This document shows, piece after piece, positions 115 to 38,408 of a stretch of DNA of 38,408 nucleotides (the first letter of the stretch is position 1; every line of letters begins with the position of its first letter). The DNA is taken from positions 1 through 38,408 of IMG/VR virus record IMGVR_UViG_3300033153_002985, one strand, 5' to 3'. The notes beneath the pieces are model-generated. The model was not told the origin of the DNA, did no database searches, and saw only the letters and a program-made list of their open reading frames with translations. The position numbers and the translations under genes are program-made. The stretch comes from a virus.

Positions 115-664
115 CTCTAGCATACATAAACATATCATAATAGTGGTTCAGGCCGTCCGGTACGCCGATAAGCCAACACCATGCGCGGTAATCCGGTCGC
201 GTGGGGTTAAACGTGTCTAATGCTGGGGCTATGTGTGATTCCCATGCGTCAGGTTTTATATCGGCTATCTCGTCAATAACGCCGCCCGTCCAGAAAACAC
301 CCTCTATTCGCTCGGCTTTGTCAAGCCCTATTAGCGATATCTGGGAGCCATTTTTAAACGTGATTGTTAATTCTGTTTCACTCGGCTTGGACTCCAATAG
401 TCCAGCAGGAGCGAGGGCCTTCATGTCAGCCCAATAGATCTTTTTTACCTGTGCGTTTGTAGGAGCGGCGATAAAATAACTTTCATCGGGGTTTTTTAAT
501 GCCTGTTTGATAACGTATCGTTTCGCCCGTTCTGTTTTTCCTGAACGTCTGCCAGCGGGTACAACTTTAAAACGCACATCATCGGCTACTAGATCAAGCT
601 GCTCTTGGTGCGGTATGAGTTCGTACCAACGTTTTTTATTCTTATCGTTTAAATATTCAGTCAT
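1..664 (-). CDS. terL: terminase large subunit, N-terminal (ATPase) part; gene continues across the circular joint
   Basis: This is the motor that translocates DNA into the prohead and cuts concatemers. The ATG at 664 overlaps the TerS stop by one base (TAATG). The N-terminal ATPase half is visible: Walker A GRRSGKT at residues 38-44 and Walker B VIDE at about 129-132, within the usual TerL context. The frame runs off base 1 and resumes at 38294, ending at 37654. The joined gene is 1,305 bp (434 aa), normal for the family. It lies directly downstream of the putative TerS and upstream of the portal gene, interrupted only by a homing-endonuclease gene. Confidence 0.95.
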   Translation of the reverse strand, partial: MTEYLNDKNKKRWYELIPHQEQLDLVADDVRFKVVPAGRRSGKTERAKRYVIKQALKNPDESYFIAAPTNAQVKKIYWADMKALAPAGLLESKPSETELTITFKNGSQISLIGLDKAERIEGVFWTGGVIDEIADIKPDAWESHIAPALDTFNPTRPDYRAWCWLIGVPDGLNHYYDMFMYARDSGDPDWKAYHWTSAEILPAKTIEAAKRHMSAKQFKQE

Positions 665-1155
665 TAATCGGGGAGAGCTTCTGCTACTGCTTGTGTTATT
701 TCAGATATCGATAAATTGCTTTGCAATGCATTGGTGTTGTTAATGTCGGTCTTTGGTGCGTGTCTCTCTGCTACCTTCAAAGTGATAGCCAGTTTGTCGT
801 TCGCATCTACTAGATGTTTTAAGTCTTGCGGTTCGTCTATGTTGTCTGCCATATCGCTTATTTTACCAGCCAGTTTAGTAGCGTTATCATTAATCAGCTT
901 CTTGTGTCTGATTTTTTCATCTGCCACCTCATCCGCACAAACAATAGACTGTTCCTTTTCTGTTCCCTTTTTGGACGCTATTATTTCTTTGGCTTCCACG
1001 TAGTCGGTGTTTCTGCCCTGTTCCCATTGTTCCTTTTTTGCACGTTGGGAAATTGTGTTTCTGGCTATTCCTGTTTTCTCTTTGATCTTTGACAATGAAA
1101 GCCCGGCTTCATAATATCCTTTAGCCCTACCCCACTGCTCATTACTGAACGCCAT
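664..1155 (-). CDS. terS: putative terminase small subunit
   Basis: This 163-residue protein has an N-terminal helix-turn-helix (about residues 18-40, 'LSLSKIKEKTGIARNTIS') followed by a charged helical region, the usual plan of TerS proteins that bind the packaging site. It sits immediately upstream of TerL with a one-base stop/start overlap. The ribosome site GGGAGG lies just before the ATG, inside the end of the preceding gene. The assignment rests on the HTH, size and position. Another DNA-binding protein is possible but unlikely here. Confidence 0.75.
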   Translation of the reverse strand: MAFSNEQWGRAKGYYEAGLSLSKIKEKTGIARNTISQRAKKEQWEQGRNTDYVEAKEIIASKKGTEKEQSIVCADEVADEKIRHKKLINDNATKLAGKISDMADNIDEPQDLKHLVDANDKLAITLKVAERHAPKTDINNTNALQSNLSISEITQAVAEALPD

Positions 1156-6537: not shown

Positions 6538-7157
6538 CACGACCTGCCTATTTTCTGCAACATTCCCGCTACCTTTGGGTGTATCGGTTCTTGCTCTATC
6601 ATTACAGGTTCGTCTTTATCTTTCAAAAACGGAAGCACGCCGCCCAGCTCTTCGAACTTGCTTTTGACTTCTTTAATGACTCCGATTTTGTGCTGATTGA
6701 CAAAAAGCCACTTCCAAAATAAAATCTCATCATCCGACGTGAGTTTTTTACCGCTGTACTGGTTCACCAATTCGCTATCACGGTTCATTGCAACAGTCAC
6801 AGAGGGCTGATATAGTCCTTCGATGTCGTTTGCTATGCGCTTGCCTTTAAAGTAGTGATAACAGAAGTCTTTCACTGTGTCGAGTTCCTTGAAGGTGCGC
6901 GTTCCGGCTTGTAGTTCATTGGTGAATATTTCGGCTTCGTACTTTCTTACAACATTACTAATCGCGGTATCTGGTCTCATCATTGTATTATCGTTTCTAA
7001 TAGTCTCAACGACAAACTGTTTGATTTTATCGTCAGGGATATTTTTCAAAAGCTCTTTGTATATAAACATCGTGCTGGTATTAAATGGAATCCTAAAGCT
7101 TTCCAGCAATGCCTTTATCATTCCTGCCCTAAATGGATTATGATCTGTGCTGCTCAT
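6537..7157 (-). CDS. hypothetical protein, possible replication protein
   Basis: A 206-residue protein starting MSSTDHNPFRAG. An N-terminal extension open to 7289 is antiparallel coding of the endonuclease gene and is rejected. It has no recognisable Walker motif. Position between an HTH_39-type DNA binder and the ninG region corresponds to that of replication genes in lambda-like phages, but this is inference. The start overlaps the last codons of the inserted homing-endonuclease gene, and a near-copy of its first codons lies on the far side of that insert. Confidence 0.75.
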   Translation of the reverse strand: MSSTDHNPFRAGMIKALLESFRIPFNTSTMFIYKELLKNIPDDKIKQFVVETIRNDNTMMRPDTAISNVVRKYEAEIFTNELQAGTRTFKELDTVKDFCYHYFKGKRIANDIEGLYQPSVTVAMNRDSELVNQYSGKKLTSDDEILFWKWLFVNQHKIGVIKEVKSKFEELGGVLPFLKDKDEPVMIEQEPIHPKVAGMLQKIGRS

Positions 7158-7746
7158 GCTTATACCCCCATTTATACCCATTTGCACTATTCCTTGTACC
7201 ATTACAGCATTTAAAAATATTCGATAAATGGGAATTTGTTTGTCTTGCTGCTTCACTAAGTGAAATAAACTCACCCACAATACAGTCATTTAAGCTATAT
7301 TGTAATACTGCTTTTTTTGGCTTACCTGTGTTTATTTTTAATGTCATTGCGACAATGGAACCTTTTTTGTTATTCTCATCCCATGTTATTAGCTGTATGT
7401 TGTTTTTCGTATATCCGATAGAATCGTCTATCCTATCCACCGAGGGAATACAATCTTTTAGATAACCACTCGCCACCCATCTTGTATAGAGTTTGAAAAA
7501 GTTTTGATTTTCTAATATCCAATTTGCGAACCACCCTTTAGTATACGTTGGCATTTTATGGCCGCGTCTTTTGCTATTGAATCGTTGCATTGCGTATATT
7601 CTAGCTATTAATCCAGGAATTGATCTATTGTAAACAAGAGTGCATTTTTTGCATCTGTTTTCTAGTCCATCTTTTAGTAATTTGTGTTTATAAAATTCTT
7701 CTGTCGGTTTTTTGATATCGCATTTTTTACATTTTTTAAATGTCAT
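7138..7746 (-). CDS. HNH homing endonuclease with zinc finger and NUMOD1-like domain (copy 1)
   Basis: A 202-residue protein. It has an N-terminal zinc finger (CKKC...CKKC), a central HNH-like core around 'SVDRIDDSIGYTKNNIQLITWDENN', and a C-terminal NUMOD1-type DNA-binding segment ending NGYKWGYK. It is free-standing, not in an intron. Its tail HEQHRS is read from the start region of the next gene, whose ATG lies 20 bases before the endonuclease stop codon ends. The same tail (KHEQHKS) ends the gene on the far side, so the insert sits exactly at a gene junction. AGGAGAC precedes the ATG. Related to the gene at 36974-37582. Confidence 0.9.
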   Translation of the reverse strand: MTFKKCKKCDIKKPTEEFYKHKLLKDGLENRCKKCTLVYNRSIPGLIARIYAMQRFNSKRRGHKMPTYTKGWFANWILENQNFFKLYTRWVASGYLKDCIPSVDRIDDSIGYTKNNIQLITWDENNKKGSIVAMTLKINTGKPKKAVLQYSLNDCIVGEFISLSEAARQTNSHLSNIFKCCNGTRNSANGYKWGYKHEQHRS

Positions 7747-9273: not shown

Positions 9274-9399
9274 TCATTCATTTGTGTGTGCAGCGGTTGT
9301 GTTCACATACCTGTCATGCTTTTTTCTTTTAAGCCTATTGAATCTTTGAATCTTGGCTAACCTTTTTGCTGTGTGTTTTTGGTTTTTGGGCTTAGTCAT
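9274..9399 (-). CDS. small very basic protein (41 aa)
   Basis: A 41-residue frame starting with ATG at 9399, which overlaps the stop of the upstream gene as ATGA. About a third of its residues are Lys or Arg. It ends just before the next gene's ribosome site. A nucleic-acid contact is plausible from charge alone. Confidence 0.55.
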   Translation of the reverse strand: MTKPKNQKHTAKRLAKIQRFNRLKRKKHDRYVNTTAAHTNE

Positions 9400-9698
9400 T
9401 CTTCTATCCACTGAGTATGAAAACCGTCGCATGGGCTTGAAGTGATTATTTTTTGAACTAAATGTGTTCTGTCACATCCTTCGCCATCATGCATTACGAC
9501 ATGCTCTTCATAATGCTTTTGCTTATCGTTCCATTCAAACCATCTCTTCTCTATCTCATATTGAGGATTAACCGGAGTGAATATCGGTTTTCTTTGAGCG
9601 CGCTTAGTTAATGGTTCTTCTAAGACTTTAACTATTTCTTTTTTATCTTGATCTGAAATCTTATCCATATGTGCTTTTATATTCTTACTGTTTTCCAT
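9396..9698 (-). CDS. hypothetical protein downstream of the structured RNA
   Basis: A 100-residue charged protein, no recognised domain. It is the first gene after the ~620-base structured RNA region, and its start has only a weak AGAG ribosome site, so its expression could depend on the RNA upstream or be low. Confidence 0.7.
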   Translation of the reverse strand: MENSKNIKAHMDKISDQDKKEIVKVLEEPLTKRAQRKPIFTPVNPQYEIEKRWFEWNDKQKHYEEHVVMHDGEGCDRTHLVQKIITSSPCDGFHTQWIEE

Positions 9699-9719: not shown

Positions 9720-10322
9720 TATGACTTTGGTGAAACTCGTTTGCAAGGCATACTTAGACCTCCCCCGAAATAGGGAAAACGTCAATGTATGACTTCGGAG
9801 CCAACTTCGTAGCTTTTAACAAACGCGCACTGTTGCGCCAGTAGTTCCAATCAGCAGCGGTCACCATTGTGTGCTGAGAGTTCCATACAAGCTCTACAAC
9901 TGAATGTCAGAGCATGGTTAGGCATGAACTACCGTTAGCCTAACTTAATAGGTGACGGTATCTGGAATCGTTAAACCAGTCCCTTTAGAAAGCCTTTCGG
10001 ACGATCTCGATTTTTTTAGTTCGGTTGACAATGAAATAAGAGTTTTTTGATTTATAAGTAGGAGGGTTGAGCCTGTCAGAACTACCACTACTTATAGACA
10101 AATATTTCAAGTCAACCCCCCGAAGGAGGTCAGCAGTGATAGCTGACAGGCTAACTTGAAATATCAAAGTAAATTAAAGATCACAACGCAGGAGAGTAAA
10201 CTCTACTGACCGCGTTATTAAAATTATAACTATTAAAAGCTGAATGTTTGTTGAAGCCCCCGCATTGATGAGACGCGGAGGGAGGATTTAAGGAGGTACG
10301 ATTTAAAGGGGTAAAATCGTAC
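9720..10322 (-). ncRNA. candidate large structured phage RNA or very long structured leader
   Basis: There is no coding potential between 9699 and 10428. The minus strand folds extensively. A 5' hairpin spans 10296-10322 (9 bp). Further stems are 10257-10263/10275-10281, 10185-10191/10210-10216, 10102-10112/10154-10164 (11 bp), a UUCG-capped stem 10115-10120/10125-10130, and a pseudoknotted core 10053-10164. The 3' part has 9917-9923/9938-9944, 9851-9856/9872-9877 and 9825-9828/9835-9838. Four helices contain pairs that are G-U on the minus strand but A-C on the plus strand, which fixes the strand. An extended -10 at 10329 would start transcription at the first base of the 5' hairpin. No intrinsic terminator is visible; the 3' end is approximate. 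Confidence 0.65.
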
Positions 10323-10328
10323 AGGGTG

Positions 10329-10337
10329 ATTATAGCA
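10329..10337 (-). promoter_or_regulatory. extended -10 promoter of the structured RNA
   Basis: The minus strand reads TGCTATAAT, with a poor -35. A start seven bases downstream of the -10 falls on base 10322, the first base of the 9-bp 5' hairpin. Confidence 0.6.
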
Positions 10338-10428: not shown

Positions 10429-10806
10429 CTACTGTTGGTGATGGTTTTGGTTTCCATTCCATTGTATATCCTTTGTTGTATTTACTATTGCCCTTGCACT
10501 TGCAAAGGTGTACTTCTTGTATGTAAAGCATTCTGAGTTGTATTCAACTACTGTCGCGGTAAACTCTACCACTTCTCCGCATTTTAGCTTTTCTTCTCTC
10601 CATCTTTTAGAGTAGTTTATAAAAAAATGGTCTATTGGTATATCGTTAACAACCGCATCCTTTATTAACACTTTTTTTATCCCGCCGAACGGTTCAACTA
10701 TGCCCTCGTATCTCCCCTTTATTTTTAGCTTTTCCCCTAAATATTTTTTTAGAAAAAATCTACAATGTCTTTTTTCTTTATTTGGTGTTCTTGTATCGTC
10801 GATCAT
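10429..10806 (-). CDS. OB-fold-like small phage protein
   Basis: A 125-residue protein with 'IKGRYEGIVEPFGGIKKVLIKDAVVNDIPIDHFFI', a beta-rich pattern seen in small phage early proteins thought to have an OB-like fold. No catalytic residues. AAGGGGGAATAA precedes the ATG. The 117 bases upstream, to the HExxH gene, show no recognisable feature. Confidence 0.7.
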   Translation of the reverse strand: MIDDTRTPNKEKRHCRFFLKKYLGEKLKIKGRYEGIVEPFGGIKKVLIKDAVVNDIPIDHFFINYSKRWREEKLKCGEVVEFTATVVEYNSECFTYKKYTFASARAIVNTTKDIQWNGNQNHHQQ

Positions 10807-13529: not shown

Positions 13530-13904
13530 TTAAGCTAGGTAATGCGACAATACAACATCGAAAAAGAGAAAAGCAAGCCCGACCAGCGCGAAACACGGCC
13601 TATGCGTAACCTCGACTTTTCGAGCCACACCATAAGCACCCATGAGCTTGTAGTTAGAGTAGGAGAAAGATAGGGTTCACCTGCGAATGTGTGGTTGTTT
13701 ACTCTTACAGCACACGCGCCAAGCCCGGCAAAGGTGGACAAGACCGTCTGTCCGTGTGCTGTATGATTTACAACTGTTAAGATTTTAAAGAGCGGGACAA
13801 GGCGAGACTGGAGGAGCGCGCCTGCCTTGCACGTGGGAAAATGTTGGATCGTAGCCAACTGTCTCGTTCTGAGAGTCTTAACAAGTTCTATAAAAGGGGT
13901 AAAG
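13530..13904 (+). ncRNA. structured non-coding leader of the plus-strand operon
   Basis: These ~375 bases hold no credible gene. The plus strand has an 11-bp stem 13706-13716/13753-13763, a hairpin CTCGA-cttt-TCGAG (13611-13624), GTTGG/CCAAC (13843-13847/13855-13859), and an enclosing 11-bp stem with one bulge (13772-13782/13876-13887). Inside that stem, CAAGGC (13798-13803) pairs with GCCTTG (13824-13829) and the adjoining GAGAC (13804-13808) pairs with GTCTC (13861-13865), a classic H-type pseudoknot. The last stem ends just before the AAAAGGGG ribosome site of the first gene. Strand is inferred from gene orientation. No clear promoter was found. Confidence 0.55.
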
Positions 13905-23344: not shown

Positions 23345-24098
23345 GCCATGCCTCCCCCGTTACTCGAATTGATTGGTACATTGCGTCTTTATACGGCTGT
23401 CTGCTCTTGCTTACGTCGATTTGAACCAACACCGCATCATCTGGGTACTCTGAATGATTCCATGAGAAAACAAGCGGATTACTAAGAGAATGCTCGATTA
23501 ATGGTTCCCAATTGGCGCGAAGCCATGCGGGTGTGATTATGTCGAAGTTGGCCTTAAAGCCGTTTTCTTTGCTTTCTACTGAGTTACCCAATTGTAGGCC
23601 TGTTTCGCTCTTGTTAGATAGCTGTTTGAATTTCCTATCCATGTGAGCAGGTGTGAACCCGCCGCTGATTCCGCGCTGCATTGTCATGTATTCGCCAATT
23701 ACGATAATGCCGATGGATGGGATCAGAGTAGGGGCTACGACTTCGACACGGAAATAACGCTTGTTTACAGAGGTAAAGATATCAAATATCATCTGGCTAT
23801 CTGACTTTTGCAGGGCAGAGGTTAAATCCGTCCAGCCTGTCGCGCCATCGGCAGACCATTGCAGCTTAGCTGTGGAGTTTTTCTCTGTGAGGTTATGGCT
23901 GAACACGGCGAAGCAGTCAACGTCTACCGCTGCGCCTGCATCTACGTTGATGTAGTATGTCCCGGTAGCTGATGGCTTATGAAAGTATGCGCTCTTCCAA
24001 TTGGTGACATTAGACACCGGAAACGAAGCGTCTGAACTTGTCGCCGTTACCGTACCAGTGGTCATTATGTTTTGATAAAGAAAAATAGGCAAACTCAT
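23328..24098 (-). CDS. distal tail protein-like
   Basis: A 256-residue protein with an N-terminal beta-sandwich of galactose-binding type (residues ~15-140: 'WKSAYFHKPSATGTYYINVDAG', 'LQWSADG'). A second beta part follows. This plan occurs in distal tail/minor tail proteins of phages with similar gene order. The ribosome site AGGAGT lies in the last codons of the inserted AP2-type gene. Confidence 0.7.
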   Translation of the reverse strand: MSLPIFLYQNIMTTGTVTATSSDASFPVSNVTNWKSAYFHKPSATGTYYINVDAGAAVDVDCFAVFSHNLTEKNSTAKLQWSADGATGWTDLTSALQKSDSQMIFDIFTSVNKRYFRVEVVAPTLIPSIGIIVIGEYMTMQRGISGGFTPAHMDRKFKQLSNKSETGLQLGNSVESKENGFKANFDIITPAWLRANWEPLIEHSLSNPLVFSWNHSEYPDDAVLVQIDVSKSRQPYKDAMYQSIRVTGEAWHELLI

Positions 24099-24700
24099 AA
24101 AACACTCCTATTGCAACTTAATAATTCTGCGTGCTTCTGCAATCCTTTTTTTACTTTATCGTCTTTGGAGAGCAATGCGTATCGATTAATTTCTGATATT
24201 TTTACTGTTAGATATGCATGGTGTGCTTCTTTTATTGAACCATAGCTACCTATATAACACCGCTTCCCAGCTATGGTTATTTGAGCAATATATTTTTTAT
24301 TTGGTTTGTTTAAATATACCCCCTGCGGGTAGTCGCCTCTTATTTTTTCGTTGCTTCGAAGAATCCCGTTTAATTCTTTCGAAACAAAAACACATCTGCT
24401 CGGCGCATATACTTTGTTTCCCGGGCGTACTATATCTTTATCTAGTTCTTTTCCTTTCCAATCCCTGTTCGCCATCCATTTTTTAAAATTAGAAAAATAA
24501 TGCCATTCTTCACATACAGAAACATCTGAATACGTTATTTGCCTTTTGTGAAACTCTTTGTCATATGCGCGCTTTAGCATATTAACCCATTTCATGTAGT
24601 ATGGGCAAAGAATGCATTTCCCGTTATCATCTTTCCATCTTACTGGCTCGCTGGAATCATTTATCCCGATACCGCATATTAGTTTATTCTTTTTTCTCAT
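24095..24700 (-). CDS. AP2-domain homing endonuclease-like protein
   Basis: A 201-residue protein: 'CPYYMKWVNMLKRAYDKEF...SVCEEWHYFSNFKKWM...DKDIVRPGNKVYAPSRCVFV' (the family's HNH-like core), then a C-terminal AP2 segment 'GVYLNKPNKKYIAQITIAGKRCYIGSYGSIKEAHHAY'. Such genes are selfish and sit between structural genes, here tape measure and distal tail. It is linked to both by ATGA overlaps and has no promoter of its own. Confidence 0.85.
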   Translation of the reverse strand: MRKKNKLICGIGINDSSEPVRWKDDNGKCILCPYYMKWVNMLKRAYDKEFHKRQITYSDVSVCEEWHYFSNFKKWMANRDWKGKELDKDIVRPGNKVYAPSRCVFVSKELNGILRSNEKIRGDYPQGVYLNKPNKKYIAQITIAGKRCYIGSYGSIKEAHHAYLTVKISEINRYALLSKDDKVKKGLQKHAELLSCNRSVL

Positions 24701-36973: not shown

Positions 36974-37582
36974 TTATTCGTACCTCCACCTATAGCCGCC
37001 CGCAGTTTCTCTTTCTCCTCTACAGCATGAAGCTAGATTTCCACAAGATACGCCTGTTTGTCTTTTTGCATCCTGCGCTGATACAAATTTATTTAACTCT
37101 TCGCCATCGAGTTTATATTGAATAACTGTTTTTTGCGGCCTATGTCCATGTTTAATTTTACCTGAGCGCATATCTGCCTCCGCCTTGGCTTTATTCTCGC
37201 CCCACGTCATAAGCTGGATATTATCAAAACTATATCCTTTTTTGTCATCTTTCCTGTCTATACTCGGCGACAGGTTTTTATTATAATCAGACTCTACCCA
37301 TTTTTGATACAATGGCCCAAACTCAATTTTAGAAAATATCCATATTCTCAATTCGCCAAGTGTGTATTTTGGTACGCTGTGGCCTCTGCTTCTGCTGCTT
37401 CCTAGCTGGGAACTATAGATATTTGCCACTAGGCCGCTTTTGGTTTTCTTATATGCTGCGCTTCGTAAATTATTGCATCTTTTACACTGTAATTTTAAAC
37501 CGTCTCTATTGGCTTTCTGTTTGCCAAAATCATCTATTGGTTTTTCTGTTTTACATTCGGTGCATTTTTTAGAAGTGTTCAT
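36974..37582 (-). CDS. HNH homing endonuclease with zinc finger and NUMOD1-like domain (copy 2)
   Basis: A 202-residue protein: zinc finger CTEC...CKRC, core 'SPSIDRKDDKKGYSFDNIQLMTWGEN', C-terminal NUMOD1 pattern 'SAQDAKRQTGVSCGNLASCCRG' ending GGYRWRYE. It is homologous over its whole length to the gene at 7138-7746. The start at 37582 follows TTGGAG. It sits between TerL and the portal gene. Its promoter overlaps the TerL stop codon. Confidence 0.9.
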   Translation of the reverse strand: MNTSKKCTECKTEKPIDDFGKQKANRDGLKLQCKRCNNLRSAAYKKTKSGLVANIYSSQLGSSRSRGHSVPKYTLGELRIWIFSKIEFGPLYQKWVESDYNKNLSPSIDRKDDKKGYSFDNIQLMTWGENKAKAEADMRSGKIKHGHRPQKTVIQYKLDGEELNKFVSAQDAKRQTGVSCGNLASCCRGERETAGGYRWRYE

Positions 37583-37661
37583 GTAGGTTCTCCAATTCAA
37601 TTTCCAATTCAGAACAAATGAGAGGCCGCTAAACCTCTCGAATTGGACTTATATTATACCA
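37583..37661 (-). promoter_or_regulatory. promoter and hairpin leader of homing endonuclease copy 2
   Basis: TGGTATAAT (37653-37661) is followed by a nested hairpin: CCAATTC...GAATTGG enclosing GAGAGG...CCTCTC. The start TTTTATGGTATAAT, ATAAGyCCA and GCnGCCTCTCA are shared with the leader of copy 1. The TAA inside TATAAT-context is the TerL stop. Confidence 0.65.
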
Positions 37662-38408
37662 TAAAAGAAACTGAACCTGACTCGCTAACCCTTATCGGGA
37701 ATCTTACCGCGGTGTAATATCTTAATGCGGTGGTGATGTGCTGGTAATCGCTGTCTTTTTCTTGAAAAGACGAGCCTTCTTTTAGCTGCACTGTTGCTAG
37801 CCCTTTGTCGGCGTATTTGCATTTTTTATTATTTACATACAAGTGTGTTTCGTTTGCCGCGTTTAATATTCTGGCTCTTAATGAATTCTGTCCGTCAATA
37901 ATTTTGCCGTTTGCTTTTGGCACTTTATCCCTAACTGACCAGCCCTCTTTTTTTAATATGTCTTTGATAATCGTAAAGTTTGAATCTTGCGCGTGCTTCT
38001 CCCCAGCTCGCCCACTTGCATCGCCATATAAAATCACTTGTTTCACTTGTGCTGCTTTGTACCGCTCCACAAACTCTAACGCTGCATTTCTGGCTACTGC
38101 GCTTTCTAATATGATTTCATCTACCACGCAAGACACATCGCCGTACTCCTGTACTATTGCACTACTCATCGGCGTATAATTAAAGTCGTGACACCACATT
38201 ATAGGCCGGGTATCATCATATTCCTTATTGGTGTGGTTGGCTTTCGAGTAATCTTCATACACTCGCCCCGTTGCAGTTTCAAAACTGGCCTCGTATTCCT
38301 GTTTAAATTGCTTCGCGCTCATGTGACGCTTTGCTGCTTCGATTGTCTTCGCTGGCAATATCTCCGCACTCGTCCAGTGGTATGCCTTCCAATCTGGGTC
38401 ACCGCTGT
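37654..38408 (-). CDS. terL: terminase large subunit, C-terminal (nuclease) part
   Basis: This is the continuation of the gene that starts at 664. It holds the RNase H-like nuclease domain: 'MWCHDFNYTPMSSAIVQ' (first catalytic Asp), 'ILYGDASGRAGEKH' (second Asp) and 'DYQHITTALRYYTAVRFP' near the end. It runs off base 38408 because of the 114-bp overlap. The last three residues and stop (FMV-TAA) are contained in the promoter start shared by the two endonuclease inserts, so the extreme C-terminus may have come with the insert. Confidence 0.95.
   Translation of the reverse strand, partial: SGDPDWKAYHWTSAEILPAKTIEAAKRHMSAKQFKQEYEASFETATGRVYEDYSKANHTNKEYDDTRPIMWCHDFNYTPMSSAIVQEYGDVSCVVDEIILESAVARNAALEFVERYKAAQVKQVILYGDASGRAGEKHAQDSNFTIIKDILKKEGWSVRDKVPKANGKIIDGQNSLRARILNAANETHLYVNNKKCKYADKGLATVQLKEGSSFQEKDSDYQHITTALRYYTAVRFPIRVSESGSVSFMV
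38295..38408. repeat. terminal direct repeat, right copy (circular closure)
   Basis: Identical to bases 1-114. One copy should be removed to obtain the 38,294-bp circle. Confidence 0.95.

Follow-up and report, generated by a model that had tools for sequence, protein, structure and literature searches.

The IMG/VR virus record IMGVR_UViG_3300033153_002985 comprises 38,408 bp, and this whole stretch is referred to here as the window. It carries the portal, scaffold, tape-measure and tail-fibre genes of a tailed phage, all on the minus strand. The RNA element analyzed here lies in a 730-nt gap, flanked by the minus-strand open reading frames 10429-10806 and 9396-9698, in which no convincing gene was recognized. 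No coding signal was found in the small open reading frames that cross the element or the gap, and the predicted structure of the neighbouring 125-aa protein had a pLDDT of 45, too low for use. Searches with the neighbouring proteins, the portal protein alone, the matches listed in a portal alignment and portal motif patterns returned no near relative of the phage; the best identity among the at least 590 portal relatives listed was 36%. Judged by its proteins, the phage appears isolated.

The rest of the record contains a partial terminase large subunit (37654-38408, minus strand) and a terminase-small-like protein (664-1155, minus strand) at opposite ends, which suggests a circularly permuted, nearly complete genome cut inside the terminase region. 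Homing-endonuclease-type genes (HNH/endonuclease VII, AP2, NUMOD1 / I-HmuI-like) occur three times on the minus strand, at 7138-7746, 24095-24700 and 36974-37600, and the third of them separates the terminase fragment from the portal gene. The plus strand has a complete tRNA-Ala (TGC) gene at 13792-13869.

Upstream of the element, the gap contains a candidate promoter and a 5' domain:

10329..10337, minus strand: candidate promoter, a perfect extended -10 TGCTATAAT with no recognisable -35; predicted start G10322
10296..10322, minus strand: 5' hairpin H1, 9 bp, GUACGAUUU/AAAUCGUAC
10282..10296, minus strand: single-stranded linker CCUCCUUAAAUCCUC, which with the preceding A10297 includes ACCUCCUUA
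10257..10281, minus strand: hairpin H2, CCUCCGCGU/AUGCGGGGG
10180..10220, minus strand: hairpin H3, approximate limits, AACGCGGUCAGUAGAG...CUCUCCUGCGUU

The predicted start is the first base of H1, and the element takes up the stretch 158-269 nt behind it. The window has five perfect extended -10 motifs against 1.9 expected, a count made after this one had been seen by eye. Every one is on the minus strand, and the remaining four precede minus-strand open reading frame starts by 17-78 nt. Their positions are 1412, 7824, 18659 and 37653 (minus strand), with TTTTATGGTATAAT common to 7824 and 37653.

The element itself spans 112 nt (10053-10164, minus strand) and is built from the following parts:

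10102-10112/10154-10164, minus strand: helix P1, AUAUUUCAAGU/ACUUGAAAUAU, 11 bp
10070-10079/10143-10152, minus strand: helix B, AGCCUGUCAG/CUGACAGGCU, 10 bp
10061-10069/10113-10121, minus strand: helix C, GGGGGGUUG/CAACCCUCC, 9 bp with one G-U
10053-10060/10089-10096, minus strand: helix D, UAUAAGUA/UACUUAUA, 8 bp
10143..10152, minus strand: Ba, 5' arm of helix B (state X)
10070..10079, minus strand: Bb, 3' arm of helix B (state X), mean pair probability 0.94
10136..10142, minus strand: ext_a, CUAUCAC, which lengthens B in state X and, in state L, sits at hairpin 1's apical loop
10082..10088, minus strand: ext_b, GUGGUAG, which pairs with ext_a
10114..10131, minus strand: UUCG-capped hairpin GACCUCC(UUCG)GGGGGUU of state X, which rivals helix C for the G run
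10113..10121, minus strand: Ca, 5' arm of helix C, paired in the pseudoknot only
10061..10069, minus strand: Cb, 3' arm of helix C, CAACCCUCC, whose CCUCC is single-stranded in state X
10102..10164, minus strand: hairpin 1 of state L, with P1 of 11 bp, or 16 with further pairs including G-U
10053..10096, minus strand: hairpin 2 of state L (helix D, 9 bp maximal), whose loop holds ext_b, Bb and Cb

A sequence-only reading had described P1, B, C and D as abutting helices of a pseudoknotted three-way junction, with two local hairpins competing with B and C, and had offered a two-state switch as its second option. All four helices were found where that reading placed them, U10153 is the sole base between P1a and Ba, and both competing hairpins exist. 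Exact abutting holds with the trimmed helices; it is partly a choice of trimming, because the maximal helices overlap. At full length, C (10 bp) has a one-base overlap with B and P1, and D (9 bp) has one with C; P1 can be extended via G-U pairs to 17 bp, into Ba and Ca.

We compared folding strength with that of shuffled sequences and between strands. The minus strand of 10040-10180 folded at -46 kcal/mol, with an MFE z score of -6.05 and 0 of 200 shuffles reaching it, as opposed to a z of -3.1 for the plus strand. When the window was scanned in stretches of 120 nt, the element was the top stretch of either strand (z of -6.7 on the minus and -2.5 on the plus strand). Its own z came to about -6.4 on the minus and -2.6 on the plus strand; overall, the values were about -6 to -7 on the minus and about -3 on the plus strand. 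Subregion z values were computed with T instead of U, which seemingly cost about 1 kcal/mol (-43.6 versus -44.5) and hardly changed z: they were -6.85 (minus) and -3.1 (plus) for the hairpin 10164-10102 alone, -4.4 and -1.6 for the 5' domain 10322-10165, and -1.4, not significant, for hairpin D (10053-10096) alone. From 10052 to 9740 there was no folding excess over shuffles (z of -0.9), so the structure stops at D.

The strand asymmetry arises because of G-U pairs and the UUCG loop: helix C, the extension of B and the UUCG stem each use one G-U pair, which is lost on the plus strand. This asymmetry points to an RNA read in the same direction as the neighbouring genes. P1, B and D are perfect inverted repeats that would serve equally well in DNA, as a binding, replication or recombination site that merely resembles RNA helices, but the folding excess sits on the minus strand, the three G-U pairs do not survive on the other one, and the loop reads UUCG on the minus strand; we regard such a DNA-level element as very unlikely. 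It is more improbable still that the element is one domain of a large ornate RNA across the whole 730-nt gap. The gap is geneless, with more long-range complementarities, and ROOL and GOLLD are phage RNAs of this kind (PMC12286853), but the segment 10052-9740 folds no more than its shuffles and no ROOL/GOLLD-type Rfam model matched, even at an E value of 5. At 9917-9960 (minus strand), a hairpin GUUAGGC/GCCUAAC was spotted by eye, and pairing of its loop to an upstream UACCGU could make a small pseudoknot; the region around it, taken as a whole, does not fold beyond chance.

Unconstrained nested folding gave state X (-44.5 kcal/mol), in which B is lengthened to 17-18 bp by CUAUCAC/GUGGUAG and accompanied by the UUCG hairpin. 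Forcing either P1 or D yielded one and the same nested fold, state L (-41.0 kcal/mol), which combines hairpin D with P1 lengthened to 16 bp. In hairpin 1 of this state, P1 closes a small three-way junction with the hairpins GUCAGC(UAUCACU)GCUGAC and CUCC(UUC)GGGG. P1 and D thus belong to L and B to X. The two states have no base pair in common and exclude each other as nested folds.

To quantify the second fold, we barred all pairs of the best fold, along with their slid neighbours, refolded the sequence, and computed the same quantity in shuffles. The second independent fold scored -39.5 (z of -7.7), a value that none of 2,000 shuffles reached and that ranked top among 2,736 window tiles. Since no shuffle or tile matches it, bistability is the best supported property of the element. 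A bistable switch calls for two folds that exclude each other, are close in energy and each exceed chance, and such a pair is what we found; with two strong folds that lack a common pair, the two-state switch became the better supported of the two earlier proposals. By computation, then, the element has a strand-specific structure and two strong, mutually exclusive folds. As this is a single sequence whose alternatives are tied by repeated motifs (CUGAC, CCUCC), selection for switching is not proved.

Nested energy models leave out pseudoknots, which may be the true fold. For the junction P1/B/C with D, the first choice of the sequence-only reading, the evidence is mixed: its helices are present and their packing is favourable, but C is missing from the nested folds. 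The pair probability of C in the nested ensemble was near 1e-9, and forcing it cost 13 kcal/mol, so that it can form only as a pseudoknot. By chance, all 9 pairs of C would form in 2.8% of permutations of its 3' arm and in 0.4% of random 9-mers of local composition, and C is the weakest part of the helix set. Stacking sums were -15.1 for P1, -21.7 for B, -19.1 for C and -10.3 for D. Their total of -66.3 could offset the pseudoknot costs, in which case P1+B+C would become competitive. A helix-packing score that allows pseudoknots exceeded all 3,000 shuffles in a search limited to 120 helices, which missed the best packing; a fuller rerun covered the element only. Computed without loop costs, the packing search picked B, its extension, C and P1 (41 bp).

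A single static junction of this type (P1/B/C with D or extended B), acting as a scaffold or as a ribozyme-like or nuclease-resistant RNA, would account for this packing and stacking sum, for the presence of all helices, which tile the element, and for linkers of 0-1 nt. We nevertheless consider it unlikely. Apart from the absence of C from the nested ensemble, C may be a by-product of repeated CCUCC opposite the G run; hairpin 1, which is incompatible with B, is the most significant fold alone; and no Rfam family matched. The geometry is a further obstacle, as P1 and D closed around 17-19 bp (B+C or B plus extension) make two rings linked by more than one turn. Forming 19 bp of B+C between hairpin loops that are both closed is demanding on topological grounds, and with P1 and D closed the 17-19 bp would have to wind through more than one turn, presumably slowly. 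The junction may therefore still arise as a tightened form of X.

Searches for homologues gave the following picture. In Rfam 15 (ribozymes, riboswitches, ROOL, GOLLD, xrRNA, introns), no family scored above its gathering threshold, and the one match, to mir-251, was at chance level (20 bits versus a cut-off of 45). No RNA homologue was found by blastn in phages and plasmids or with an exact 28-mer in IMG/VR. A gap pattern based on helix B retrieved 48 loci from IMG/VR and genomes; none of them combined P1, C and D with the CCUCC/UUCG pattern of the element. One-sequence covariance models, run over the candidate loci, 33 complete virus records, 8 genomes and 369 genomes from a single class, found nothing, which is weak evidence. 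Their sole match (E value of 0.0025) was rejected as chance because it lies inside a long open reading frame that reads as a DNA methyltransferase and had been found via the same B pattern. The bistable phage RNA is probably real and an orphan; since no relative was found, its function can only be inferred.

The 5' domain and the element are rich in CCUCC. Between 10296 and 10061, the minus strand contains five copies of this motif within 232 nt, a number reached by 0 of 5,000 shuffles and counted only after the motif had been noticed; the whole minus strand contains 16. The second copy lies at 10285-10281, and the CCUCC bases within 10295-10282 have unpaired probabilities of about 0.8-1.0. 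About three of the five are unpaired in the fold model, including one within ACCUCCUUA, which matches the 16S rRNA tail. The window contains two copies of AAGGAGGT, each on the plus strand of this gap. The phage's own genes use AAGG/AGGAG-type Shine-Dalgarno sites. These features would suit a small RNA that acts in trans, covering the Shine-Dalgarno sites of mRNAs from host or phage with its CCUCC motifs while its fold gates the exposure of these motifs, and alpha-r14 sRNAs such as NfeR1 provide a precedent (PMC10746234). Against this, the motif was counted post hoc, three of the CCUCC copies face G runs within helices and may be there for structural reasons, and no convincing terminator that could end a small RNA was found downstream of the element. 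We judge this reading quite unlikely.

Our preferred reading, to which we give an even chance, is a bistable noncoding RNA on the minus strand, which would belong either to the leader of a run of phage genes or to an independent small RNA with its start near 10322. The energy model gives an order of folding: L was the minimum-energy fold for all tested 3' ends down to 10074, and X took over from 10070, where Bb is complete and X is favoured by about 10 kcal/mol. The computed barrier from L to X was 19 kcal/mol, an upper bound, and 31 kcal/mol once Db is made. We picture hairpin 1 (state L) forming once 10102 is transcribed. The emerging ext_b and Bb could then pair with its apical loop UAUCACU and displace its arms, producing X, whereas emergence of Db would close hairpin D and lock L. 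The decision would fall in the interval 10070-10053, with the pairing of ext_b to the apical loop as a toehold, a possible role for ext_a. The winning fold may be set by elongation speed, pausing or a bound factor, and P1 and C might pair in a pseudoknot that tightens X. According to the model, the barrier would hold the RNA in L if no kissing intermediate or helper accelerated the exchange.

The choice of fold would presumably alter what the nascent RNA presents downstream. No Shine-Dalgarno site or other standard output was found beside the element, and the nearest downstream start is 355 nt away. One conceivable output is a put-like antiterminator bound to RNAP and serving the genes from 9698 down; another is exposure of the 3'-arm CCUCC, which would be free in X and enclosed within hairpin D in L. 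Our best guess is a cis-acting leader switch that folds co-transcriptionally, in a put-like position, or an RNA that masks Shine-Dalgarno sites. Going further, the element might represent a new class of phage switch. In such a leader, a three-way-junction hairpin would be displaced by the nascent 3' arm via a loop toehold, perhaps ending in a pseudoknotted junction, and this would set expression of the following gene run with neither terminator nor ribosome-binding site in the element. We put this forward as a speculative and rather doubtful proposal.

As a possible new RNA switch, the element is a good candidate. A natural RNA that packs two unrelated folds of nearly equal stability into 112 nt is a good model for co-transcriptional folding, and phages often put leader RNAs to unusual uses. 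If the switch is real, evolution has produced a compact strand-displacement device; if it is not, the case still shows that tiled helices may stand for alternatives and not for a single pseudoknot.

Riboswitches, attenuators and metastable leader RNAs also choose between two exclusive folds during transcription, as proposed here. The element differs from them in having no known aptamer, terminator or ribosome-binding output. With ROOL and GOLLD it shares the character of a structured noncoding phage RNA with pseudoknot potential, but it matches no Rfam model, only about 270 nt are folded beyond chance, and the tRNA gene lies 3.5 kb away, with no tRNA island. The alpha-r14 sRNAs (NfeR1, 'cuckoo') silence mRNAs via repeated anti-Shine-Dalgarno motifs (PMC10746234) and resemble the element in their repeated unpaired CCUCC-type motifs in or between hairpins. 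Their hallmark is three hairpins, each with an unpaired CCUCCUCCC; this ultraconserved sequence is missing from the element, which contains CCUCCCUCC and ACCUCCUU and carries its motifs in linkers and switching arms, with no terminator. HK022 putRNA is a cis-acting phage antiterminator, and putR lies about 270 nt behind its start (PMC9378689). The put elements have a sequence in common and suppress pausing and termination through the zinc-binding domain of the RNAP beta' subunit. Both RNAs are noncoding and, in the put case, belong to a phage leader; here, a candidate promoter (extended -10 only) is followed by the element and then by same-strand genes from 9698 down. A put element has two stem-loops in about 70 nt, whereas the element has two in state L only and, within its 112 nt, a second, exclusive fold. 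By analogy, a put-like effect on elongation would fit the position of the element, and Shine-Dalgarno masking would fit its CCUCC count.
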